Assembly: GCA_020073665.1 (NCBI GenBank)
Contig: JAIQEU010000028.1
Span: 1 to 38,649 of the forward strand
Length of the DNA: 38,649 bases
From: Terriglobia bacterium
GTDB taxonomy: Bacteria > Acidobacteriota > Terriglobia > Terriglobales > Acidobacteriaceae
Direction: 5' to 3'
The translations under genes and the position numbers were made by a program. The notes beneath the pieces were generated by a model. It was not told the DNA's origin. It did no database searches and saw nothing but the letters and a program-made list of their open reading frames with translations. Positions within the stretch are counted from its first letter, which is position 1, and each line of letters begins with the position of its first letter. Below, piece by piece: positions 1-10,452 of this stretch.

Positions 1-1053
1 TACAACACCTCGAACGAGCTGACCTCGACGCCGACCACCAGCTACACCTACGACAACAACGGCAACACCAAAACCAAGTCGGACGGGACGCAGTACAACT
101 GGGACTTTGAGAACCGGCTGGCGAGCGTGGTGCTGCCGGGAGCGGGCGGGACGGTGTCGTTCAAGTACGACGGGTTCGGGAGAAGGGTGCAGAAGTCGTT
201 TGTGCAGGGCGCGAATACCACGACGACGGATTACGTATATGATTTCGTTAACCTCTTGGAGGAGGTGGATCAGAGCGGAAATGTCCTGGCCCGGTATACT
301 CAGGGACCATTGGTGGATGAGCCTCTGGCAGAACTCCGCTCTGGAACTACCAGTTATTACGAGCAGGACAGTCTTGGCACCGTCACATCTCTGAGTACTT
401 CGGCCGGAGCCCTCGCAAACACGTACACCTACGACTCGTTCGGGAAGCTGACGGCTTCGAGCGGGACTATCTTCAACCCTCTGGCGTACTCGGGGCGCGA
501 GGTCGACTCGGAAACCGGCATCTACTACCACCGAGCCCGATATTACGATCAAAACATCGGGAGGTTTTTTAGCGAGGACCCGATTCGGTTTCGCGGCGGA
601 GTCAACTTCTATCGCTACGTTGCGAACAACCCTGTTAGCCTGACAGACCCATCTGGGCTCAAGGTGTCAAAATGTTGCCGGACCACGCAAGTGAACTGGT
701 TTGTCGACTTCCTTTCAGGTGTGACTGGGTTCAAGCACTGCTTCATTAAGACTGATACCAAGACCGCGGGTATGGGACCTGTCGGCGGCGGGCCGCTGCC
801 TGCCTGCCCCCTGTATGCCCAGACTCAGGTCAGGGATCACTCCTCCGAGTCCGGGGCAGACTGTCAGGAGATACCTAACGTCGACGAGTCTTGTGTCAAT
901 CGAGAACTGCAAATTGGGGCGTCAACTGGGCGCTGGACACTAACCAACCAGTGCAACAGCTTCGTCTATGGTGTTCTGTATAAGTGCAGAACATGCAAGA
1001 AGTCAGACTTCGACCCAATTACGTACGGTTACGCCACGAAGTGTGGAGTATAG
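1..1053 (+). CDS. Rhs/YD-repeat protein, 3' end, with variable C-terminal tip
   Basis: The reading frame is open from base 1, so the gene starts before the window. The first ~210 codons carry YD/RHS repeats (YTYDNNGN, FKYDGFGRR, YTYDSFGKL) and end in the Rhs-associated core, with the conserved stretch RYYDQNIGRFFSEDPI and then NPVSLTDPSGLK around 540-660. After this hallmark, the last ~130 residues are a different, Cys-rich sequence (about ten Cys) including GFKHCFIKT and TNQCNSFVYGVL. In Rhs polymorphic toxins the core shell is conserved and the tip is the variable effector. The spaced His and the Cys in NQCNSFV could be a papain-like/permuted NlpC-P60 dyad, but that is inference only. A two-TM gene starts 9 nt downstream, where an immunity gene is expected. 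The Rhs assignment is firm; the toxin activity is not shown. Confidence 0.9.
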   Translation, partial: YNTSNELTSTPTTSYTYDNNGNTKTKSDGTQYNWDFENRLASVVLPGAGGTVSFKYDGFGRRVQKSFVQGANTTTTDYVYDFVNLLEEVDQSGNVLARYTQGPLVDEPLAELRSGTTSYYEQDSLGTVTSLSTSAGALANTYTYDSFGKLTASSGTIFNPLAYSGREVDSETGIYYHRARYYDQNIGRFFSEDPIRFRGGVNFYRYVANNPVSLTDPSGLKVSKCCRTTQVNWFVDFLSGVTGFKHCFIKTDTKTAGMGPVGGGPLPACPLYAQTQVRDHSSESGADCQEIPNVDESCVNRELQIGASTGRWTLTNQCNSFVYGVLYKCRTCKKSDFDPITYGYATKCGV

Positions 1054-1062
1054 AGCATCGCC

Positions 1063-1311
1063 ATGAATTCAAAAACCGCTAGAGTGAGATATTGGGTGGG
1101 AGCGGTGCTCCTCATTCTCGCGTCAGGCTGGTCTTTCAACATTGCAACGTACAATTGGTTTGCGGCCGACTTCCATAACCAATACAGTCATGCGCATGCC
1201 TTACGAGGGAATATTTTCTTCATCGTGGCGCTTGCGCTTTTCGTAGCGTCCGTGTTGGTTATCGTTGCGATTCTCCGTTCCGGCAAAAAGCGACAGATGG
1301 CGAAGACGTGA
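1063..1311 (+). CDS. small two-TM membrane protein, candidate Rhs immunity protein
   Basis: An 82-aa protein with two hydrophobic segments (about residues 10-30 and 51-70), a short loop rich in His/Tyr/Asn between them, and a basic tail (RSGKKRQ). The ATG lies 9 nt after the Rhs stop, and its TGA overlaps the ATG of the following hydrolase (TGATG), so the three genes are probably co-transcribed. I do not recognise the family. Its place directly after an Rhs variable tip is where cognate immunity proteins usually sit, and a membrane location would suit a toxin acting in the envelope. That role is inferred from context only. Confidence 0.6.
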   Translation: MNSKTARVRYWVGAVLLILASGWSFNIATYNWFAADFHNQYSHAHALRGNIFFIVALALFVASVLVIVAILRSGKKRQMAKT

Positions 1312-2018
1312 TGTTGGAGACGCTAGTACTTCTGCCCGGCTTGGACGGCACCGGAACCCTCTTCGCCGGGCTCATTTCTGAGCTTCCGCCAACGATGAAA
1401 GTGAAGATCGCGAGGTATCCGACAGACCGATTCTTCTCCTACTCTGAACTTTTGCCTTCCGTGAGGGGACTAGTTCCGAGCAGTGATCCGTTCCTCCTGG
1501 TAGCTGAATCCTTTTCGACTCCGTTGGCCGCAATGCTTGCGGCCACACGCCCGCCGAACCTGGTCGGACTGGTCATGGGTGCAGGGTTCGTTAGGAATCC
1601 TTTGGGAGGCTGGTCGAACCTCGCCAGGATTCTGGCAAGACCTTTCCTGTTCAGGCTTCCACCACCGGGCTTCGCGCTCGAGTATTTCCTCATCGGGAGT
1701 GATCCGCCAAGTGCCCTTGAGGCTGGTGTCCGTCAGGCTCTAGGGCTTGTGAGTCCCATGGTTTTGTCCCGGAGGGTCCACGCGGTCTTGAACTGCGACG
1801 CGAGAGAAGACCTCGCGCGAACTGATCTCCCGATGATGTACGTCCAAGCGGAAGGCGACCGCCTGGTGCACGCAGAATGTTTTGTAGAGATTCAACGGCT
1901 TCGACCGGATGCCCTGTTGTCCTCGGTCCGAGCTCCGCATCTCGTCTTCCAGAGAGAGCCACAAAAGGTAGCGAAAGTCATCGTGCAATTCATTCGTCAG
2001 TTGCCAGGTTCTTCTTGA
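1311..2018 (+). CDS. alpha/beta hydrolase family protein
   Basis: A 235-aa single-domain alpha/beta hydrolase. It opens with the oxyanion-region pattern LLPGLDGTGTLF (residues ~6-17). The nucleophile elbow reads VAESFSTPLA, so the Ser is present but the usual flanking Gly residues of GxSxG are Ala and Ser. A candidate acid is Asp in AEGDRLVH, and the candidate His is in APHLVF near the C-terminus. The start is the ATG at 1311, overlapping the stop of the upstream small membrane gene; a GTG one codon earlier is also possible. There is no signal peptide, so it should be cytoplasmic. The substrate cannot be told. It is probably cargo of the accessory region, co-transcribed with the Rhs locus. 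Confidence 0.8.
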   Translation: MLETLVLLPGLDGTGTLFAGLISELPPTMKVKIARYPTDRFFSYSELLPSVRGLVPSSDPFLLVAESFSTPLAAMLAATRPPNLVGLVMGAGFVRNPLGGWSNLARILARPFLFRLPPPGFALEYFLIGSDPPSALEAGVRQALGLVSPMVLSRRVHAVLNCDAREDLARTDLPMMYVQAEGDRLVHAECFVEIQRLRPDALLSSVRAPHLVFQREPQKVAKVIVQFIRQLPGSS

Positions 2019-2065
2019 AAACGTATCCCGATGCAACGACGGTGGAGTACGACTACCACGCAACC

Positions 2066-2288
2066 TGAGCGGCTCCCCATTTTCTGACACACCTTGAGAG
2101 TTAGTTTCCGGCAAAATCTACTACCTGAGAAGGGGAGGTTTGCCGTGAAGAGGAAACGTTTTTCCGTAGAACAGATCGTGGGGGTTTTGAAGCAGGCCGA
2201 GCTGGGGGTGCTGGTGGCGGAGCTGATCCGCCAAGTGGGGATTTCGGAGCAGACTCTGTATCGTTGGAAGAAGCAGTACAAAGTATAG
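2066..2288 (+). mobile_element. truncated IS3-type element (left end plus start of orfA)
   Basis: A candidate left inverted repeat starts with TGAGCGGCTCCCC at 2066, as IS3-family ends typically begin with TGA followed by a C-rich stretch. It is followed about 65 nt later by the start of an orfA. The element stops shortly after the HTH; no orfB (DDE integrase) and no right end are visible before the IS91-type transposase. The end assignment is tentative because no partner end is available for comparison. Confidence 0.5.
2145..2288 (+). pseudogene. IS3-family transposase OrfA fragment (HTH only)
   Basis: A 47-residue frame from GTG 2145, preceded by a strong Shine-Dalgarno (AGGGGAGG, 2131-2138). 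The product reads KRKRFSVEQIVGVLKQAE, then ELIRQVGISEQTLYRWKKQY, the typical HTH_Tnp_1 helix-turn-helix of IS3 OrfA. Normal OrfA proteins are roughly 90-100 aa and continue into a leucine-zipper coiled coil. Here the frame stops right after the WKKQY motif, so the protein is cut to its DNA-binding half and is unlikely to be functional. The break probably reflects a deletion or the insertion of neighbouring mobile DNA. Confidence 0.8.
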
Positions 2289-2476
2289 GAAAATCAAAAT
2301 CCTGTGTTTGGTAATGGACGATGACCTTTCCGACGACTCGGGATGGACTATAGCCCAGATCAAGGAAGCGCGGTTGAGGTCGTCTGGGTCCCCTGGAACG
2401 AAGACGGTGAGGCGGTCGGGCAGACAGCAGGAGGGAGGCAGGATCTTGCGAACGGCAATCTAGGGGGACCCTTTGA

Positions 2477-3574
2477 CTAGCCGGATTCTGGCGCTATTCG
2501 CCGCACCCATGTCATCTTCTTGCCGCTGCTGTCGAGGAGCGGGTCTTTTCCAAAGTCTCGCTTGATCGCTTCCGCCCACCGGAGAGGTTTGGGGCGTGGT
2601 CTTCGTTTCTGCCTCAGGATTGCAAAGATGGCTGCTGAGGTTTGTCTCAGTGCGCGCGGGGCAAGCAGCCCAAAGCAACGAACAGCGTGCTGATAGCGTT
2701 CGGGAATGTGTTGAGCCCAACGGTCGATAAACTCTTCTGGTGAGCACTGCACGGTGATGCGGTGACCCAGCCTCTTGTCTTTTGTGCAATACGTCACGCT
2801 TCGTTCCCCGATGCAGATGATGCGACGCTGCGCAATAGGCGGCCGCCTCACATAGCGACCGGCGTATCGTAGGAAACGCTCTTTGGAGCCGAGGGATTGA
2901 ATGTGGATGCTCCACCAGCGGTTCCCCTGCTGGACAAGCATCGCTTCCATCTGGTCAGCGGTAAGTTCGGTATGGAGCAGCCCCGCTCGCAAAGCTGTGC
3001 GGACCAGCTTGATCACGGCGTTTCGCCAAGACTCCATCAACGAGTCGCGGCCATAGTAGACCCGAGACGTCCAGGAACCGGACGCTTGCAGCCCTCCCGC
3101 GGTGACCATTGTGTGCACGTGTGAATTGAACTCCAACCGCCCGTTGAAGGTATGCAGAATAGCAATGACGCCGACCCGTAGTCCGTACCTGGCACTTACC
3201 CATGCCTGGATAACGTTCGCGGCAAGCGCTGGCAGAGCCCGTGCCAAGGGCGGGTGGTCGCGGAAAAGCTGCCAAAACAAGTCGGGCACGGTGAACGTGA
3301 TCCCCTTGTACATTGCGTCTGGCAGTGCGGCCCACCGCTCGCGCTGCCATTGCACGGTGGCCCGATAGCCACAACTTGGGCAGGCGCGGGACTTACAGGT
3401 GTGATAGACGATCCTCTCCTGGTTCTCTGAGGCGTATACCTCGGCACCCAAAGCTGGGGTGCGGCACAGCAGCGCACTGCGAAAGGCCCGTCGAACGGAC
3501 GATCGGGCCTCATCCCGGTCCCAGTGTGAACGGGTCTGAGACAGAATCTGCGTGAGTGGGTTGCGATATTTCAC
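2477..3574 (-). CDS. IS91-type (Y2, HUH) transposase with zinc-binding N-terminus
   Basis: A 365-aa rolling-circle transposase. Residues ~37-75 form a zinc-binding region with Cys60, Cys65 and Cys68 (HTCKSRACPSCGYR). The HUH metal-binding motif is His152-Val-His154 (FNSHVHTMV). The paired catalytic tyrosines fit Tyr237-AGR-Tyr241 (RYAGRYVRRP). These are the Y2_Tnp hallmarks. The reading frame is open further upstream, but GTG 3574 is chosen because it overlaps the upstream ParB-like gene's stop as GTGA and the upstream extension only shadows that gene. It is the last gene of an HTH-ParB-transposase operon. The 188 nt between its stop and the IS3 remnant hold no gene; the element's ori/ter ends could not be placed. 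Confidence 0.9.
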   Translation of the reverse strand: MKYRNPLTQILSQTRSHWDRDEARSSVRRAFRSALLCRTPALGAEVYASENQERIVYHTCKSRACPSCGYRATVQWQRERWAALPDAMYKGITFTVPDLFWQLFRDHPPLARALPALAANVIQAWVSARYGLRVGVIAILHTFNGRLEFNSHVHTMVTAGGLQASGSWTSRVYYGRDSLMESWRNAVIKLVRTALRAGLLHTELTADQMEAMLVQQGNRWWSIHIQSLGSKERFLRYAGRYVRRPPIAQRRIICIGERSVTYCTKDKRLGHRITVQCSPEEFIDRWAQHIPERYQHAVRCFGLLAPRALRQTSAAIFAILRQKRRPRPKPLRWAEAIKRDFGKDPLLDSSGKKMTWVRRIAPESG

Positions 3575-4689
3575 GCCAGATTCAACTTCCCTTGAGAATG
3601 CAGACCGGTTAACAGATCCTCGCCTACGAGAATAACCGTGCGTTGAATCCGACTGGTCCGCACCAAGACTGATCCGGGTTGTCGTGCTTCCTGTTCCCAC
3701 AGGGCATCGAGCATTCTGAGGAGATCGAGGCTGGTCTTCTCTTTGCCGGGTCGAGCGATAGACTGACGGATTACCTTGCTGGTTGCGCGTTCCAAGCCGT
3801 GACGGGTGAATTGCTCCACCTGCTGGTCCTTGGGCAGCCTGCACCAATGGATCGCGCGGTTGATCGTTATCGTCCCGTCTCGCAAGGCTTCTATTAGTCG
3901 CGCATGTGCGGTCTGCAGGATCGCTTTTACGTTCGAGACGTTACGAGCGCCAACGCCTGCAGTCTGGGCAATTTCCTGCCGCACATCTATCTGTTGAGCT
4001 TCCGGCAGATTTGCCGAACCCTTGTACCGGCCCCCGAGACGCATTTTGTCGAGCGCCTTCTGCTGGAGACTTGGCTCCAGAGTAAGCGCCAGGCAAATGC
4101 GAATGAACGCATTCCATCCCCTTCGGGGTTGGTGATGCGCGAGTATGAACTGGAGGGACTCATTCTCACTGAGCGAATACTCGATGCAATTGACTTCGTG
4201 CCTACCTTCGAAGATGGCCAACCGCCAGCGTCCAAAGCCGGTCAGAATTGTCCCGCTCGTCGTGGTGAGAATCGGCTCGGCTGCGGGCTGGTCCTTCAAT
4301 CGGGTAGCCTCGTTCAGTTCGCCCACCACATCGATCAAGTCGGGCTTATCCAATGCTGGATGTAGCCGCAGGCTTTTTGGGGAACGAAGGACCGGGCGGG
4401 CTTCCCACCGGCTCGTCGCGAGGTGAGGCTGGAGTTGGTCCAAAGGACGGGCTTCAGGTCCGCAGGGGTTGTCGGCGCGCCCATAGCCTGGAGGCTCATA
4501 GGAACGGTTATCCGAGAGCGCGGCGAATTCCCGTTGTCCTGTGGTCATGCGTTCGCTGGAGATACCCTCAGAGCGCGCTCTGCCGCTTTTTGGCTGACTC
4601 GCAGCACCGGAATGACCGTCTGCCTTCACGCTACGTCTCTTATTGCCACCGATTCCCGCGCTTTGGCGAAGGAGACTTACCACCGTCAT
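3571..4689 (-). CDS. ParB-like nuclease/DNA-binding domain protein
   Basis: A 372-aa protein. The first ~100 residues are low-complexity and polar. Residues ~105-190 resemble a ParB/Srx N-terminal domain: RLHPALDKPDLID, then PILTTTSGTILTGFGRWRLA with the GxxR-type motif of ParB, then an acidic/Gln stretch (LSENESLQFILAHH). Residues ~230-285 contain a helical region like a ParB HTH (IDVRQEIAQTAGVGARNVSN). The start at ATG 4689 overlaps the end of the upstream HTH gene by 50 nt in another frame; a later ATG at residue 48 is an alternative. The stop overlaps the GTG of the Y2 transposase (GTGA), implying translational coupling. The role is unknown; binding or preparing the element's DNA for the transposase is a guess from context. 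Confidence 0.75.
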   Translation of the reverse strand: MTVVSLLRQSAGIGGNKRRSVKADGHSGAASQPKSGRARSEGISSERMTTGQREFAALSDNRSYEPPGYGRADNPCGPEARPLDQLQPHLATSRWEARPVLRSPKSLRLHPALDKPDLIDVVGELNEATRLKDQPAAEPILTTTSGTILTGFGRWRLAIFEGRHEVNCIEYSLSENESLQFILAHHQPRRGWNAFIRICLALTLEPSLQQKALDKMRLGGRYKGSANLPEAQQIDVRQEIAQTAGVGARNVSNVKAILQTAHARLIEALRDGTITINRAIHWCRLPKDQQVEQFTRHGLERATSKVIRQSIARPGKEKTSLDLLRMLDALWEQEARQPGSVLVRTSRIQRTVILVGEDLLTGLHSQGKLNLA

Positions 4690-4843
4690 GAATCACTCTT
4701 TGCAACTCCGACTCGCGGATCATCGTCCGCCCGCCGACCTTCGTGCGTTGCAACTTGCCTTGACTCAACCATGCGTGAATGGTCCACTTTGAGATGCCAC
4801 CCAGACGACGAGCAGCTTCTTCGACTGAAACCAAGATGTCCAT
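4640..4843 (-). CDS. excisionase-like HTH DNA-binding protein
   Basis: A 67-aa protein that is almost entirely a winged helix-turn-helix of the MerR/excisionase (HTH_17) type: VSVEEAARRLGGISKWTIHAWL, then GKLQRTKVGGRTMI, then a short basic tail. The ATG at 4843 is preceded by a good Shine-Dalgarno (GGAGG, 6 nt away). It heads the minus-strand operon and overlaps the ParB-like gene by 50 nt. Proteins of this size and fold act as recombination directionality factors or repressors in integrated elements. It could control the divergent integrase promoter or help excision by the tyrosine recombinase; the sequence alone does not separate these. Confidence 0.8.
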   Translation of the reverse strand: MDILVSVEEAARRLGGISKWTIHAWLSQGKLQRTKVGGRTMIRESELQRVIHDGGKSPSPKRGNRWQ

Positions 4844-4900
4844 TTGGAGCCTCCAAGCAGCGCTGCGCTGCCCTAAACGCATATTCGCACAACAAGGCTC

Positions 4901-4948
4901 TTGCAAACACAACTTCTTATGAGATACGATTAACGCATTAAATCGTAT
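4901..4948 (+). promoter_or_regulatory. divergent control region with palindromic operator
   Basis: A perfect 8-bp inverted repeat, ATACGATT (4924-4931) and AATCGTAT (4941-4948), has a 9-bp spacer, and its right arm reaches into the start codon of the CGNR-like gene. A plausible sigma70 promoter overlaps it: TTGCAA at 4901-4906 and TACGAT at 4925-4930 with an 18-bp spacer. No Shine-Dalgarno precedes ATG 4947, so the transcript may be leaderless or nearly so. The site lies between the excisionase-like gene and the zinc-finger/integrase genes and looks like a switch between them. Confidence 0.55.
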
Positions 4949-5570
4949 GCTAGAACGCACAAGGACATTTCGCCTCACCCGGAAGCGCAGTTTCCCAGGA
5001 GGGGCGCTCGGACTCAAGCTCGTTCGCTGGCTGAACAAGAAGCATGAAACCGAGAGAGTGGTCACCCTACTCGATATCGCCTTAAAGATTCAGAGGATCG
5101 CTCCCAAGAAAAGGACCTTCACCCTGGCAACTGATCGCCATGCCACTGAGTTCTCGCAGGTACTTGACGAGCTAAACGCGCGTCTGCGCTCTTTCTCGCT
5201 CAGCCCCCAACTGAGCGCCCGGGCAGGAAGCAGGTTCCGGGTTGGCTGGGAACCGAATATCACGTCACGAAAGGTCGGAAGGTTATTCGCCGATGCCGAG
5301 GAAATGGCAGAGGTCGAGAACGTGATGCGCATACTCGCGCTGATGGAGCAGGGGTTGCTGGATCGCCTTCGCCGATGCACATGTAGCAGATGGCTCATAG
5401 CGAGAATTAGGAGACAGGTGTTTTGTAGTACCGCTTGCCGACAGGCGCAGTTTAGGTCCACAGAGAGCTACAGGAAGAAGCGCCGGGAGTACATGAAGAA
5501 GTACTACGACGATCACTTTGGGAAAGCACGACTAGACAGGACTAGGAGGAATCATGGCGGGAAACGCTGA
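4947..5570 (+). CDS. CGNR-like zinc-finger protein upstream of integrase
   Basis: A 207-aa basic protein. The C-terminal third has a Cys pattern fitting a treble-clef/CGNR-type zinc finger: Cys144-x-Cys146, then Cys160-xxx-Cys164 (CTCSRWLIA and VFCSTACRQ), followed by a very basic helix (YRKKRREYMKKYYDDH). The middle, ADAEEMAEVENVMRILALME, is predicted helical and typical of the region before CGNR fingers. The N-terminus is unlike anything I recognise. The ATG overlaps the palindromic operator, and the 3' end overlaps the tyrosine recombinase gene by 17 nt, so the two are translated from one message. A DNA-binding accessory or regulatory role for the integrase is likely but inferred. Confidence 0.7.
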   Translation: MLERTRTFRLTRKRSFPGGALGLKLVRWLNKKHETERVVTLLDIALKIQRIAPKKRTFTLATDRHATEFSQVLDELNARLRSFSLSPQLSARAGSRFRVGWEPNITSRKVGRLFADAEEMAEVENVMRILALMEQGLLDRLRRCTCSRWLIARIRRQVFCSTACRQAQFRSTESYRKKRREYMKKYYDDHFGKARLDRTRRNHGGKR

Positions 5571-6642
5571 TGGTGTTTACACGCGCAGAGATCGATCAGG
5601 GTACTGGATGCATTGGACTGACGCTCAAGGCCTTCGCAGATGGCGGAAGTTGAATGTGCGGACGCTATCCCAAGCACGAGCGGCGCGGGCTGCTGAGCTA
5701 GTCCGCGTGGAACACAGCAGGGTCCTGGGCTTTGCCCCACCGGGGGAAGAGACGTTCGCAGATGTGGCAGTAAAGTTCCTGGCGCACCAAAACGCACGGC
5801 TCACACCAAAGGCTTATGAGCGCGAACGTGGCATCGTGAACGAGCACCTAGGCAGTTTCTTTCCGGGCCGGCTTGCAAGTATTCGCCGCTTGGATATTCA
5901 GCGATACGTCACCAAACGATCGAGCGAAGTTTCCGCTCACTCGGTTCACAAAGAATTGAACATCCTCAAGCACCTCCTTCGCCTGGCGGTCGAATGGGAG
6001 ATTATCCCGCTTAGCCCCGCTCAAGCCGTGAAATCTCCTCGCGTCCCCGCCGGGCGCGTGCGGTATCTTCAACCGACTGAGTTGCACGCCTTGCTGGAGG
6101 CTTGCCCGGAATGGCTGCGACCGGTTGCCGTGGTGGCGGTTGTGACAGGGATGCGGCGGTCGGAGGTGCTTGGTCTGCGCTGGCTCGACGTTGACATTGC
6201 CAATGCCCGCATCTTGCTCCCGCAGACGAAAAACGGGGATGGGCGAATTGTGTATCTGAATCAGTCCGCGCTCGCCGCGCTGCAGTCCGTTCTGAGGACG
6301 GCCTTGCCGAAAGCGACGGATCTAGTTTTTACGGGAATCACTCCTGCACAGGTGAGCGTTGCGTTCGCACGCCTGCGTCGGAATCAGGGGATTTTCGATT
6401 TCCGCTTTCATGACCTGCGCCACACTGCAGCCAGCTGGTTGCGGATGAAAGGCGCGGACATTCACACCGTCGCCCAATTGCTAGGTCACAAGGACCTTAG
6501 AATGGCTGCGCGTTACCAGCACCTTTCGCCTTCGTTCCTGGCTGATGCCGTAGCGACTTTGGACGGCGTTTTTGGCGTTCTCTGTTACCCAGGCGTTACC
6601 CAAACAAAGACACTCGAAGGGGCTGCGGTTGCAAGTGCTTAA
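5554..6642 (+). CDS. tyrosine recombinase / phage-type integrase
   Basis: A 362-aa site-specific recombinase. The N-terminal part has an AP2-like/arm-binding stretch and a SAM-like core-binding domain (about 65-150). The catalytic domain carries the full set: Arg201 (VTGMRRSEVLGL), Lys226 (TKNGDG), His286-xx-Arg289 (FHDLRHTAASWL), His312 (LLGHKD) and nucleophile Tyr321 (AARYQHLS). The start ATG 5554 has an excellent Shine-Dalgarno (AGGAGGA). It overlaps the upstream zinc-finger gene and stops 7 nt from the CCA end of tRNA-Glu, the probable attachment site. All catalytic residues are present, so the enzyme is likely active. Confidence 0.95.
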   Translation: MAGNADGVYTRRDRSGYWMHWTDAQGLRRWRKLNVRTLSQARAARAAELVRVEHSRVLGFAPPGEETFADVAVKFLAHQNARLTPKAYERERGIVNEHLGSFFPGRLASIRRLDIQRYVTKRSSEVSAHSVHKELNILKHLLRLAVEWEIIPLSPAQAVKSPRVPAGRVRYLQPTELHALLEACPEWLRPVAVVAVVTGMRRSEVLGLRWLDVDIANARILLPQTKNGDGRIVYLNQSALAALQSVLRTALPKATDLVFTGITPAQVSVAFARLRRNQGIFDFRFHDLRHTAASWLRMKGADIHTVAQLLGHKDLRMAARYQHLSPSFLADAVATLDGVFGVLCYPGVTQTKTLEGAAVASA

Positions 6643-6649
6643 TAATAGT

Positions 6650-6727
6650 TGGCGTCCCCGACGGGATTTGAACCCGTGTTACCGCCGTGAAAGGGCGATG
6701 TCCTAGGCCAGGCTAGACGACGGGGAC
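6650..6727 (-). tRNA. tRNA-Glu (anticodon TTC)
   Basis: On the minus strand the 7-bp acceptor stem GTCCCCG (5' end at 6727) pairs with CGGGGAC, followed by discriminator G and an encoded CCA (6652-6650). The anticodon loop is CTTTCAC, giving anticodon TTC at 6691-6689. The T-arm has GGTTCAAATCC. The sequence closely matches bacterial tRNA-Glu. The encoded CCA lies directly next to the integrase stop, consistent with this gene serving as attachment site while staying intact. Confidence 0.97.
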
Positions 6728-6882
6728 TACTACACGGCAGGAGCCTGCGGCTAGATTTCGATACTAGCAGCGCGTTCCTAGCGTGTCAAAGGCAGCGCGG
6801 CACCCTGCCGGTGCGCCGCAACCACGCGGCGGCTACGTTTACAATTGAGCATGGCCGCAACCGGCGGCCTTGCGGAATCTTC

Positions 6883-7476
6883 ATGGCCGATCCTCTTTAT
6901 TTCAGTCTTTGGTTCTCCAGCTTTGACCCGGAGGACATGCTGCCACACGTCTTGGCGGTGTTGCGGCAGTTTCCATTTTCCGCACAACAGCCCGGCGTCA
7001 CTTATCTGTCGCTCCATCCCGTGTCGTGGAACGAACCCACCATTCTGGAACAGCGATTCCGGCCGGGGATTGATCCCGAGCAAGCAGTCCTGATCGCCTT
7101 CGATCTGCTCCACGAAGATTATGCCTACGTGTTCGAGGCCTATTGGGACCTGTGGATTCTTGCCGAAGGCGCGACAGAATGGGTGTTGCAACCGTCGCCG
7201 GTGAAGTTTCTGGTGCACGGCCCGGAGTTCGATGAAGGGTGGAGCGAGCAGGCCGGGCACATCCAAGTGGATTTCGGACTGGACGCACCTTTTCTACAGG
7301 AGGGCGTGCAACTCACCAGCGTGGCCGAAACCCGAGTCCGCGCCAACGTTCAGAAGCTGGTAGAGTTCACCACCTCAGTGGAGAAGAACTCCGGAACCAG
7401 CGCGCGATTATTGTGGTCGGAGTCCGAGGAGAATCTGGCCCAGAAGCTGATTAATCGTTTGCAAAAAGTTCAGTGA
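6883..7476 (+). CDS. conserved hypothetical protein
   Basis: A 197-aa soluble protein of unknown function, starting MADPLYFSLWFSSF at ATG 6883. The frame is open further upstream, but the ATG gives the natural start because the preceding residues are low-complexity and Arg-rich. It is acidic, with aromatic patches (HEDYAYVFEAYWDLWIL, and FDEGWSEQAGHIQVDFGLD) and an amphipathic C-terminal helix (ARLLWSESEENLAQKLINRL). No signal peptide or membrane segment is seen. It is the first gene on the chromosomal side of the tRNA and converges with ppdK across a shared hairpin. No function is proposed. Confidence 0.75.
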   Translation: MADPLYFSLWFSSFDPEDMLPHVLAVLRQFPFSAQQPGVTYLSLHPVSWNEPTILEQRFRPGIDPEQAVLIAFDLLHEDYAYVFEAYWDLWILAEGATEWVLQPSPVKFLVHGPEFDEGWSEQAGHIQVDFGLDAPFLQEGVQLTSVAETRVRANVQKLVEFTTSVEKNSGTSARLLWSESEENLAQKLINRLQKVQ

Positions 7477-7485
7477 CTGAAACAA

Positions 7486-7525
7486 ATGGGGACGCACCAG
7501 ACGCTCCTGTTCTCGGCGTCCCCAT
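7486..7525. terminator. bidirectional hairpin between convergent genes
   Basis: Perfect 10-bp arms ATGGGGACGC (7486-7495) and GCGTCCCCAT (7516-7525) with a 20-nt loop lie between the ends of the hypothetical gene and ppdK. On the minus strand the hairpin is followed by TTTGTTTC, a weak U-tract. It most likely terminates both transcripts; a REP-type element is an alternative. Confidence 0.6.
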
Positions 7526-7531
7526 CGGTTC

Positions 7532-10321
7532 CTATTTAGTTCTTCCGCCCTCAACTTTCAACTTCTCGCTGGCTGCGGCCTGGGCGGCTGCGAGCCTGGC
7601 GGTCAGCACGCGGAAGGGTGAACAGGAAACGTAGTTCAGGCCGGTCTGGTGGCAGAATTCCACCGACGATGGTTCGCCACCATGCTCTCCGCAGATGCCC
7701 ACCTTCAACGTGGGACGTGTCTTGCGTCCACGCTCGGTCGCCATCCTGACCAACTGCCCGACACCCTCTCGATCCAGCACCGCGAACGGATCCTGTTTGA
7801 GAATTCCCTCTTCCAGGTACGTAGGCAGGACTTTGTTGAAGTCGTCGCGCGAGATGCCCATGGTGGTCTGGGTCAGGTCGTTAGTGCCGAAAGAGAAGAA
7901 CTCGGCCTCTTTGGCGATTTCATCGGCAACCAGGGCGGCCCGCGGCAACTCGATCATGGTGCCGACCAGGTAAGGCACCTTCATTCCTTTCTCTTTGAAT
8001 ACTTCTTCGGCCACGCGGCGCACGATCGCTCCCTGGTGCGCCATCTCTTTCACCGTAGCGGTCAGCGGGATCATGACTTCCGGATGGACCTTAACGCCTT
8101 CCTTCGCAACCGTCACCGCCGCCTCGAAGATGGCGCGTACCTGCATCTCGGTGATCTCGGGATAGGTAATGCCCAGGCGGCATCCGCGGTGCCCGAGCAT
8201 GGGATTGAACTCATGCAATTGTTCAACCCGGCTCAGCAGCGCCGGCAGAAGTTTCTTCATATCGCTTGCCGTTTTCGCGCCGTAATCGCGATACTTTGCC
8301 ACCAGAGATTTCTTCTCCTGGGCACTGGCCGACGGCAACGTCACGATGTCCACCATCAACTCCTCTCGCCGAGGAAGGAATTCGTGCAGCGGCGGATCGA
8401 GGGTACGGATGGTGACGGGGAAGCCGTCCATGGCGCGGAAAACACCGATGAAGTCCGCCCGCTGCATGGGCAGCAGCTTCTTGAGGGCGGCGCGGCGGTC
8501 TTTTTCATTATCGGCGAGAATCATGGCACGCATGTGCGGAATTTTCTTCTCGCCAAAGAACATGTGCTCGGTACGGCACAGGCCAATGCCTTCGGCGCCG
8601 AACTCGCGGGCCTTCTCGGCGTCGCGCGGAATGTCGGCGTTAGCCCGCACCCCTAGTTTGCGGAAGGGCTCGGCCCAGGCCATGAACTTCATCAACTCCG
8701 GATCATCGGGGCTGGCGTCAAGAGTGTTGAGCTTACCCTTGATCACGCGGCCGGTGGTGCCGTCGAGCGAAACCCAGTCGCCTTCCTTGAATACCTGGCC
8801 TTTGACACGCATTTCGCGGGCTTTCTCGTCCACCACGATGTCGCCGGCACCCGCTACACAGCACTTGCCCATACCGCGCGTGACCACCGCGGCGTGGCTG
8901 GTCATGCCACCGCGCGAGGTAAGAATGCCCTTGGCCACTTCCATCCCGTGGATGTCTTCCGGGGTGGTCTCGGCGCGCACCAGGATGACCGGCGTCTTCT
9001 TATCGTGCGCAACTTTCTCGACCGCTTCGTCGGCGGTGAAAACGATCTGGCCGACCGCGGCCCCCGGGGAAGCTGGCAAGCCCGTGGCCAGCACTTCGAC
9101 TTTGCCGCTTTTTTCGTCGAGCCGAGGAACCAGGAAGTCGTAGAGTTGGTTCGGGTCGACGCGGAAGATGGCCTCTTCCTTGGTGATCAGTCCCTCTTCC
9201 ACCATCTGAATGGCCACGCGCACCGCCGCCAGGCCCGTACGCTTGCCGTTGCGGGTCTGCAGCATGTAGAGCTTGCCATCCTGGATGGTGAACTCAAAGT
9301 CCTGCAGGTCCTTGTAGTGTTTTTCCAGCCGGGTGGTAATGTCGCGCAGCTGGTTGTAAACCGCGGGCATGATTTTCTCGAGTTCGAGGATGTGGACAGG
9401 GGTGCGCACGCCGGAAACCACGTCCTCACCCTGGGCGTTCAACAGGAACTCGCCGTAAAACTCCTTGTCGCCATTCGCCGGATTGCGGGTAAAGCCGACG
9501 CCGGTGCCGCTGGTGTCGCCGAGATTGCCGAACACCATGGCCTGCACGTTCACCGCGGTGCCCAGGTCGTCGGAAATATTATTGATGCGGCGATAGTGCT
9601 TGGCCCGCTCATTCTGCCAGGAGCGGAACACGGCGTCGCGCGCCATGACCAATTGCTCGTGGGGATCCTGCGGGAAGTCGCGGTGGGCATGCTTTTTGAC
9701 GACCTTCTTGTATTCTGCGATGACTTCGTTGAGCGCTTTGGCGTCGAGGTCGGTATCGAGTTTGGTTTTCTTCTGCTTCTTCTTGTGGTCGAACACGTGC
9801 TCAAACGCTGCCTTGTCGATGTCGAGCACCACGTTGCCAAACATCTGGATAAGGCGCCGGTAGGAGTCGGCCGCAAAGCGGGGATTGTTGCTGCGCTTGG
9901 CCAGCGCTTGCACGCTCTCGTCGTTGAGGCCGAGATTGAGGATGGTGTCCATCATGCCGGGCATGGAGAATTTCGCGCCCGAGCGCACGCTGACCAGCAG
10001 CGGATTCTCGCCTTTGCCCAGCTTCTGGTGCTGCAACTCCTCAAGGTGCTTGAGGGCATCTTCCATCTGGCGGTCCACATCGCCGGAGACCGCGTTGTGC
10101 CGCATGTACTCGCGGCAGGCCTCGGTCTGGATGGTGAAGCCCGGAGGCACGGGAAGGCCGGCATTGGTCATCTCGGCCAGTCCGGCGCCCTTGCCGCCGA
10201 GTTCATCTTTCATTTTGCCGTGGCCGTCGGCCTTGCCACCGCCGAAGAAGTAAACGTACTTGGTGGCGGACGGTTTATGGATCATCTCAATTTCGGTTTC
10301 AGGGAGAGTAGTTGTCGCCAT
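7532..10321 (-). CDS. ppdK: pyruvate, phosphate dikinase
   Basis: A 929-aa enzyme interconverting pyruvate + ATP + Pi and PEP + AMP + PPi. The N-terminal nucleotide-binding domain begins YVYFFGGGKADGHG and has the KGAGLAEM and GFTI motifs. The swivelling phosphohistidine domain has GGMTSHAAVVTRG with catalytic His476 and, two residues before, Thr474, the position phosphorylated by PPDK regulatory proteins in other organisms. The C-terminal PEP/pyruvate TIM barrel has GIGLCRTEHMFF, SFGTNDLTQTTMG, and CGEHGGEPSS with catalytic Cys877. A Lys-rich insert lies at ~180-210. ATG 10321 is preferred over upstream in-frame codons because family similarity begins right after it. It follows glyS on the same strand with a repeat-bearing gap. 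Probably used in gluconeogenesis or PPi-linked glycolysis. Confidence 0.97.
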   Translation of the reverse strand: MATTTLPETEIEMIHKPSATKYVYFFGGGKADGHGKMKDELGGKGAGLAEMTNAGLPVPPGFTIQTEACREYMRHNAVSGDVDRQMEDALKHLEELQHQKLGKGENPLLVSVRSGAKFSMPGMMDTILNLGLNDESVQALAKRSNNPRFAADSYRRLIQMFGNVVLDIDKAAFEHVFDHKKKQKKTKLDTDLDAKALNEVIAEYKKVVKKHAHRDFPQDPHEQLVMARDAVFRSWQNERAKHYRRINNISDDLGTAVNVQAMVFGNLGDTSGTGVGFTRNPANGDKEFYGEFLLNAQGEDVVSGVRTPVHILELEKIMPAVYNQLRDITTRLEKHYKDLQDFEFTIQDGKLYMLQTRNGKRTGLAAVRVAIQMVEEGLITKEEAIFRVDPNQLYDFLVPRLDEKSGKVEVLATGLPASPGAAVGQIVFTADEAVEKVAHDKKTPVILVRAETTPEDIHGMEVAKGILTSRGGMTSHAAVVTRGMGKCCVAGAGDIVVDEKAREMRVKGQVFKEGDWVSLDGTTGRVIKGKLNTLDASPDDPELMKFMAWAEPFRKLGVRANADIPRDAEKAREFGAEGIGLCRTEHMFFGEKKIPHMRAMILADNEKDRRAALKKLLPMQRADFIGVFRAMDGFPVTIRTLDPPLHEFLPRREELMVDIVTLPSASAQEKKSLVAKYRDYGAKTASDMKKLLPALLSRVEQLHEFNPMLGHRGCRLGITYPEITEMQVRAIFEAAVTVAKEGVKVHPEVMIPLTATVKEMAHQGAIVRRVAEEVFKEKGMKVPYLVGTMIELPRAALVADEIAKEAEFFSFGTNDLTQTTMGISRDDFNKVLPTYLEEGILKQDPFAVLDREGVGQLVRMATERGRKTRPTLKVGICGEHGGEPSSVEFCHQTGLNYVSCSPFRVLTARLAAAQAAASEKLKVEGGRTK

Positions 10322-10349
10322 GGTATTAGTCCTTTGCGTTGCGAAATTC

Positions 10350-10372
10350 GTAGCGCCGGCGCCCCGCCGGCC
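10350..10372. repeat. GC-rich REP-like palindrome (GTAGCGCCGGCG family)
   Basis: The sequence starts GTAGCGCCGGCG and ends CCCCGCCGGCC, forming a short-loop palindrome in the leader between glyS and ppdK. A close relative in opposite orientation lies at 38306-38327 and a diverged one at 19586-19607. Confidence 0.6.
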
Positions 10373-10452
10373 TTTCGTGAACTTGTCATCCAGAGCGATG
10401 CCCAAGCCTGGGTCTCTTTCGCCCCCGGGGATCGCTAGTTTCTTGCTCGGCT

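Follow-up and report, generated by a model that had tools for sequence, protein, structure and literature searches.

To judge from sequence comparison, the conserved mobile unit in this stretch of DNA is a two-gene IS91-type module, a parB-like gene followed by a transposase gene (tnp), which is inherited together, and within this clade the ParB-like protein is a near-constant partner of the transposase (TNP). The window, meaning the whole 38,649 nucleotides analysed, carries three ORFs on its minus strand, for an excisionase-like helix–turn–helix (HTH) protein, the ParB-like protein and the IS91-type transposase (Table 1). The original prediction described three overlapping genes: the ORFs are real, as is the GTGA in which parB and tnp overlap, and the 50-nt overlap of xis and parB holds only with a parB start at ATG 4689.

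Along the window the order is tRNA-Glu, integrase, a 207-aa ORF, xis, parB, tnp and an oriIS-like end, so that the module probably lies near one end of a tRNA-Glu island. The integrase and tRNA-Glu genes converge, their 3' ends facing each other. Against the searched families the 207-aa ORF has no match; it carries cysteines near its C-terminus. Beyond tRNA-Glu, a PPDK-like ORF (7532-10405) and then glycyl-tRNA-synthetase-like ORFs suggest ordinary chromosome. The oriIS side holds an IS3 orfA remnant and RHS-type repeats, and the contig (C51, in a genome of 5.4 Mb) stops 2.3 kb beyond oriIS. Window positions 1-209 are identical to the final 209 nt of contig C28 (L002 2456-2664), and given this exact match of contig ends the two contigs may be neighbours. 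Contig C28, from the same genome, carries a 5'-truncated copy of the window's transposase with its own ori end, the same as the window's.

Table 1. Positions, strands and supporting evidence of the features of the module and its island in the window
Feature	Position	Strand	Basis or remark
tnp: IS91-family HUH/Y2 transposase (TNP), 365 aa, GTG start	2477..3574	-	Pfam/NCBIfam, motif alignment
parB-like gene, 372-aa ORF	3571..4689	-	PHROGs, PDB profile, fold; start uncertain
Conserved ParB + HTH part of the parB-like gene	~3592-4398	-	
GTGA stop/start overlap, parB/tnp	3571..3574	-	sequence
oriIS-like end GATTTTGATTTTCCTATAC	2284..2302	-	consensus of copies
Tetranucleotide TGTA at target position	2278..2281	-	
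IS3-type orfA remnant, ori-side flanking DNA	2094..2288	+	HTH_Tnp_1 match
Excisionase-family HTH gene (xis), 67 aa	4640..4843	-	HTH_17, TIGR01764
207-aa ORF, divergent from xis, overlapping the integrase gene start	4947..5570	+	
Tyrosine integrase of the tRNA-Glu island	5554..6642	+	Pfam/NCBIfam
tRNA-Glu (TTC)	6650..6727	-	probable attachment site and island boundary

Linkage and co-divergence of parB and tnp

By its domains the transposase is an IS91-family enzyme of the HUH/Y2 type. It matches Y2_Tnp (E 1e-38) and Zn_Tnp_IS91 (E 3e-15) in Pfam and scores 245 bits against the IS91 equivalog NF033538 (cut-off 125). HxH and YxxxY are invariant across an alignment of 12 rows, and the zinc-binding N-terminus, HxH and YAGRY are all intact in the window's copy. 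A contig search returned relatives at 33 loci, 32 of them from Acidobacteriota by record titles and one, 5'-truncated, from a Chloroflexi MAG. The plasmid search gave 4066 records with TNP matches, all below 60% identity, and the viral contigs searched held no relative.

ParB lies directly upstream of the transposase in 25 of the 33 loci. The other eight are L055 and seven copies in which the N-terminal part of the transposase is missing; where that N-terminus is present, a whole or partial ParB is directly upstream in 24 of 25 loci. Six of these 24 ParB matches lack their N-terminal part, the case in L075 falling at a contig end. In L055 ParB has been lost, a broken integrase frame being fused to tnp instead. 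A set of 200 related genomes, overlapping the records behind the 33 loci, gave 25 transposase hits of this clade (E <1e-70), 22 of them with ParB beside on the same contig. The predicted coupling of a ParB-like gene to an IS91-type transposase is thus borne out by both counts.

As a control we took 20 more distant IS91 transposases from the related genomes. None of these 20 loci gave a ParB match (E up to 0.01). Instead, 17 carry a tyrosine recombinase ahead of the transposase in the same orientation, lying at about -930 to -90 in 16 of them and at a greater distance in L146. The arrangement is therefore, as had been proposed, different from the IS91 layout of tyrosine recombinase and transposase: a ParB-like partner occupies the recombinase slot, and no conserved terIS was found by comparing copies. 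In a maximum-likelihood tree of 43 transposases, rooted at the midpoint, the 22 ParB-linked sequences and L055 are separated from the rest by a branch with support 100/99, and the ParB label changes twice, against 14.6 times in shuffles; this one-sided distribution implies that the partner gene goes with the clade.

The two proteins have also diverged in parallel. Over 22 complete pairs, ParB and TNP protein distances correlate with a Mantel r of 0.86, a value that none of 5000 permutations attained; the set includes four genes interrupted by one to three stops, each of which was read as X. For those closer pairs that allowed the calculation, dN/dS is 0.06-0.39, indicating purifying selection, which on ParB is of an order similar to that on the transposase and somewhat weaker. 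The gap between the two profile ends is 7-40 nt in 22/22 complete pairs.

These data bear on the view that the element is of the ordinary IS91-like kind, with ParB as a passenger or an autoregulator (a KorB-like repressor) that has no part in transposition. KorB does appear among the fold matches of the protein, and the transposase of L055 still spans profile positions 3-364 after the loss of ParB. We nevertheless consider this view distinctly unlikely, since that loss is the only one among 25 loci, ParB co-diverges with its transposase under selection of comparable order, if somewhat weaker, and the short spacing holds in every complete pair.

The ParB-like protein

ParB is a type of protein that loads on DNA and partitions replicons. 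The window's ParB-like protein has no Pfam or NCBIfam match at E 0.1 and a weak match to ParB in PHROGs (E 7e-5). Searched against the PDB, a profile built from 15 relatives recovers ParB chains with a best E of 0.002, a second profile does so at E 0.012, and HTH_ParB is matched by two of the 15 relatives (best E 0.008). The AlphaFold model of the conserved 276 residues has a mean pLDDT of 78 and a pTM of 0.67, the C-terminal part being poor. With this model, Foldseek returned 29 matches at E<=1e-3, including Noc, ParB, Spo0J, KorB and the pNOB8 ParB-N; their TM-scores are modest (query-normalised, 0.24-0.45). The model thus points to the presence of a ParB N-domain and HTH fold, as in ParB, Noc and KorB.

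In other respects the protein departs from these relatives. It is linked to a transposase, and no ParA gene was found beside it among the window's neighbouring ORFs and families. The motifs GERR and ENxQR bind CTP in CTP-dependent ParB. They are kept here in part only, GERRW aligning with GyarW and ENLQR with rhrrs, and these degenerate positions make canonical CTP use doubtful.

Several in-frame starts are available to parB, including ATG 4689, GTG 4629 (just past the xis stop) and ATG 4548. The G+C content by codon position is 0.60/0.62/0.55 over codons 1-47, against 0.63/0.44/0.64 for residues 97-372, and homology to the closest relatives begins at about residue 76-98, or at residue 50 with L036. 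In a phylum sample of 396 genomes, relatives of the protein were found at E 1e-10 in five, the window's own included. The two weak ones, both in G257, have no transposase in the 2.35 kb around each, and the plasmid search gave no ParB relative.

The oriIS end, its flanks and the left end

The original prediction proposed aligning copies to find the ends of the element. This succeeded at one end: the consensus TTTTTG(A/T)TTTTCCTATA occurs within 450 nt past tnp in 28 of the 37 copies with a TNP 3' end, 98-319 nt from tnp as measured to the A of TCCTATA. Mostly S-N-T follows TCCTATA and then a tetranucleotide, conservation ending 7 nt past TCCTATA. In nine of the 37 copies no ori end was found within 450 nt; L059 and L069 have less than 120 nt left, L063 has an ori-like sequence further out, and L070, L082 and L085 have no ori end despite more than 2 kb to search. 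Two ori ends, at 4286-4296 and 4398-4408, lie 112 nt apart in L067.

IS91 targets next to oriIS are of the GAAC/CAAG type. Flanks of this kind had been expected, and CAAG (11 copies), CGAG (6), TGAA (4) or CCAG (3) follows the ori end in 24 of 28 copies; the other four have GGAC, TAAA, CAAC and, in the window, TGTA, which is not CRAG. The module resembles the IS91 family in its transposase, its zinc-binding domain, an oriIS-like end 3' of tnp and CAAG among the flanks. At the window's junction the match of the IS3 orfA to HTH_Tnp_1 breaks at profile position 48 of 75, and in L064 the brxC match of the flank, from 8363 on, starts at model position 59 of 1173. Cut flank genes of this kind are consistent with target DNA meeting the oriIS end. 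The L064 junction falls inside brxC of a BREX system. No hairpin was detected at the window's oriIS end (z 0.46); among six copies folded, z is -0.4 to -1.7 in three, -4.0 in L061 and -2.6 in L065.

At the other end the copies share no sequence: comparing them yielded no conserved left end (terIS), and only some have HTH or QatC blocks in common. In a blastn comparison, L061 and L065 show 90% identity over a block that begins with the ParB domain and takes in all of tnp; upstream of parB they match nowhere, and between tnp and ori they match in the last 32 nt only. The missing terIS could be explained by one-ended events.

Empty sites were sought as well. The window's genome holds no second copy of the IS3 orfA. 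Searches with flanks, covering 45 genomes of one genus and 9 of another, brought up no empty site; they returned the locus itself, genes whose homology ends at least 69 nt before the junction, or short weak matches. For the cut flank gene of L057, 120 genomes held, besides itself, one distant homologue (24% identity).

tRNA islands and the proposed mechanism

The surroundings of the module recall tRNA-integrated genomic islands, with a tRNA gene, a convergent tyrosine integrase and an xis or AlpA-type gene. They differ in that the distal att copy was not found for the window and that an HUH module lies near the island end. Among the 29 loci in which the start of ParB is present, 16 have upstream of parB either a full tRNA gene (7) or an att-like 3' tRNA fragment (9). 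Each full gene is no more than 5.2 kb away and is oriented like the tRNA-Glu of the window (window, L041, L059, L062, L064, L065, L072). All nine fragments are on the same strand and begin in the anticodon stem or loop; read by eye, they are of the Ser, Glu, Phe, Met and Cys types. A motif search located eight of them, at -203 to -380 relative to the first ParB match, and that of L040 was spotted by eye. The first match in L057 covers part of ParB only, and 465 nt separate the fragment from the complete ParB. At gathering score Rfam finds no tRNA in 11 loci, including the nine fragment loci, while ARAGORN calls a 69-nt tRNA-Phe in L057. A further five loci have an upstream integrase (L046, L053, L054, L073, L078), L073 also having a tRNA-Gln in the other orientation. 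The remaining eight of the 29 show neither a tRNA or fragment nor an integrase upstream, and for two of these the upstream DNA available is less than 230 nt.

Between 150 and 400 nt before the first ParB match, eight T-arm motifs occur on one strand against 0.59 expected, and none on the opposite strand against 0.43 expected. The association with tRNA (16/29) exceeds that of the control IS91 loci (3/20; Fisher one-sided p 0.005), as do the fragments alone (9/29 against 1/20, p 0.027), with the qualification that the single control fragment is a motif match only and that control upstream stretches are mostly shorter. No direct repeat of the tRNA 3' end was found in window positions 1-7500, nor did the integrase/tRNA ends share a direct repeat of at least 16 nt with other parts of the loci, in a search run without a positive control. 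On the oriIS side of eight longer loci, three of them of the fragment type, no integrase or tRNA gene occurs in 5-23 kb.

Other island features came to light in passing. Elsewhere in the same genome, unlinked to the window, a second tRNA-Glu 3' fragment lies at C13:42724-42765 (L181); read by eye, it is flanked by an integrase remnant and, across from that, by an operon that includes a ParA-like gene, and it is possibly another island end. Upstream of parB, L042, L047/L072, L049/L059 and L033/L053 carry a unit of about 2.85 kb that comprises a QatC-like gene (PADLOC QatC, E 1.5e-54 in L072) and a gene of about 270 aa of unknown function. It is flanked by 30-bp inverted repeats (ACTCGCGCAACTCGCG...) in L047, as alignment also indicates in L049.

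The excisionase-like gene probably belongs with the island. The window's xis ORF matches HTH_17 (E 5e-10) and TIGR01764 'excise' (E 3e-8). Small HTH genes stand upstream of parB in nine of the 29 loci and are of two families: six belong to HTH_17, that of L046 lying just below the cut-off, and three to AlpA. Candidates were first picked by regular expression, so further HTH genes may exist. None of the nine loci also has a tRNA fragment. Homology between L061 and L065 starts at the first ParB-domain codons, which places the HTH gene of L065 outside the shared block; beside that gene, upstream of parB, a unit of about 60 nt is repeated head to tail. In L034, a close relative, there is no overlap between the HTH ORF and parB, so the 50-nt overlap is not a conserved trait. 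Joint inheritance, proposed for all three genes, holds for parB and tnp and was rejected for xis on its occurrence, its two families and the missing overlap. We regard xis as probably the island's recombination-directionality or regulatory gene, outside the conserved pair. It is for xis that an accident of neighbouring island genes still stands, with a gene of two families at nine of 29 loci; as an account of the whole set it is most improbable, being refuted for parB and tnp by their adjacency in 24 of 25 loci and their single transposase clade.

A different account makes ParB and TNP the replication or mobilisation core of a tRNA-integrating island. The transposase would be a relaxase or rolling-circle initiator acting on the excised circle, oriIS its nick site, ParB the factor that partitions or regulates the circle, and the DNA past oriIS cargo. 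The tRNA genes and att-like fragments at 16 of 29 loci agree with this, as do the xis or AlpA-type genes, the integrases of further loci and the conservation of CRAG, expected for part of a nick site. We think it unlikely, given the genes cut past oriIS (brxC in L064, the IS3 orfA in the window), the three long fragment-type loci without an integrase or tRNA at the partner end, and the fit of the transposase to the IS91 equivalog model.

The reading we prefer, and hold to be probable, is that the parB-tnp module transposes IS91-like from oriIS, with ParB as an accessory or regulator of the transposase. We infer a course in which the transposase, as an HUH/Y2 nickase, would cut the oriIS terminus and join it to a CRAG-type tetranucleotide, from which transfer would proceed back across tnp and parB to no fixed left end, in a one-ended, ISCR-like manner. 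The ParB-like protein would bind DNA through its ParB/HTH part and would assist or regulate the transposase, either at the transposon or on its circle; such a role at the transposon is our most economical guess. Movement of the whole island at tRNA-Glu would fall to its own integrase and xis. A bolder version, unlikely in our estimation, is that a ParB-like clamp or spreader took over the job of the tyrosine recombinase in resolving, segregating or positioning the circle, and that islands gained a second, oriIS-led means of moving or trimming, with att as the left end.

The nearest published parallel is GIsul2 with CR2-sul2, described as an IS91-like transposase inside an integrase-driven island carrying alpA, in which the putative CR2 terIS starts inside the island's att core (PMC9376610). 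The tRNA att-like fragments just upstream of parB would parallel a terIS in an att core. GIsul2 differs in sitting at guaA and not at a tRNA gene, and the portion of that article consulted names no ParB-like gene (PMC9376610). Among titles and abstract openings, with few subscription journals represented, no paper pairs ParB with an IS91 transposase (PMC9376610, PMC13393415, PMC12772301 and PMC6218425 included). IS91/ISCR transposases are held to move neighbouring genes (PMC13393415, PMC12772301).

That the partner differs between two IS91 clades sets up a natural comparison through which its function could be explored. To our knowledge, the role of the genes that accompany IS91/ISCR transposases is unclear. 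The pair also ties HUH transposition to tRNA islands, some copies carrying or abutting phage-defence genes (BREX brxC in L064, the QatC-like gene in L072). If the clamp or spreader reading were true, these would be islands with two mobility systems.
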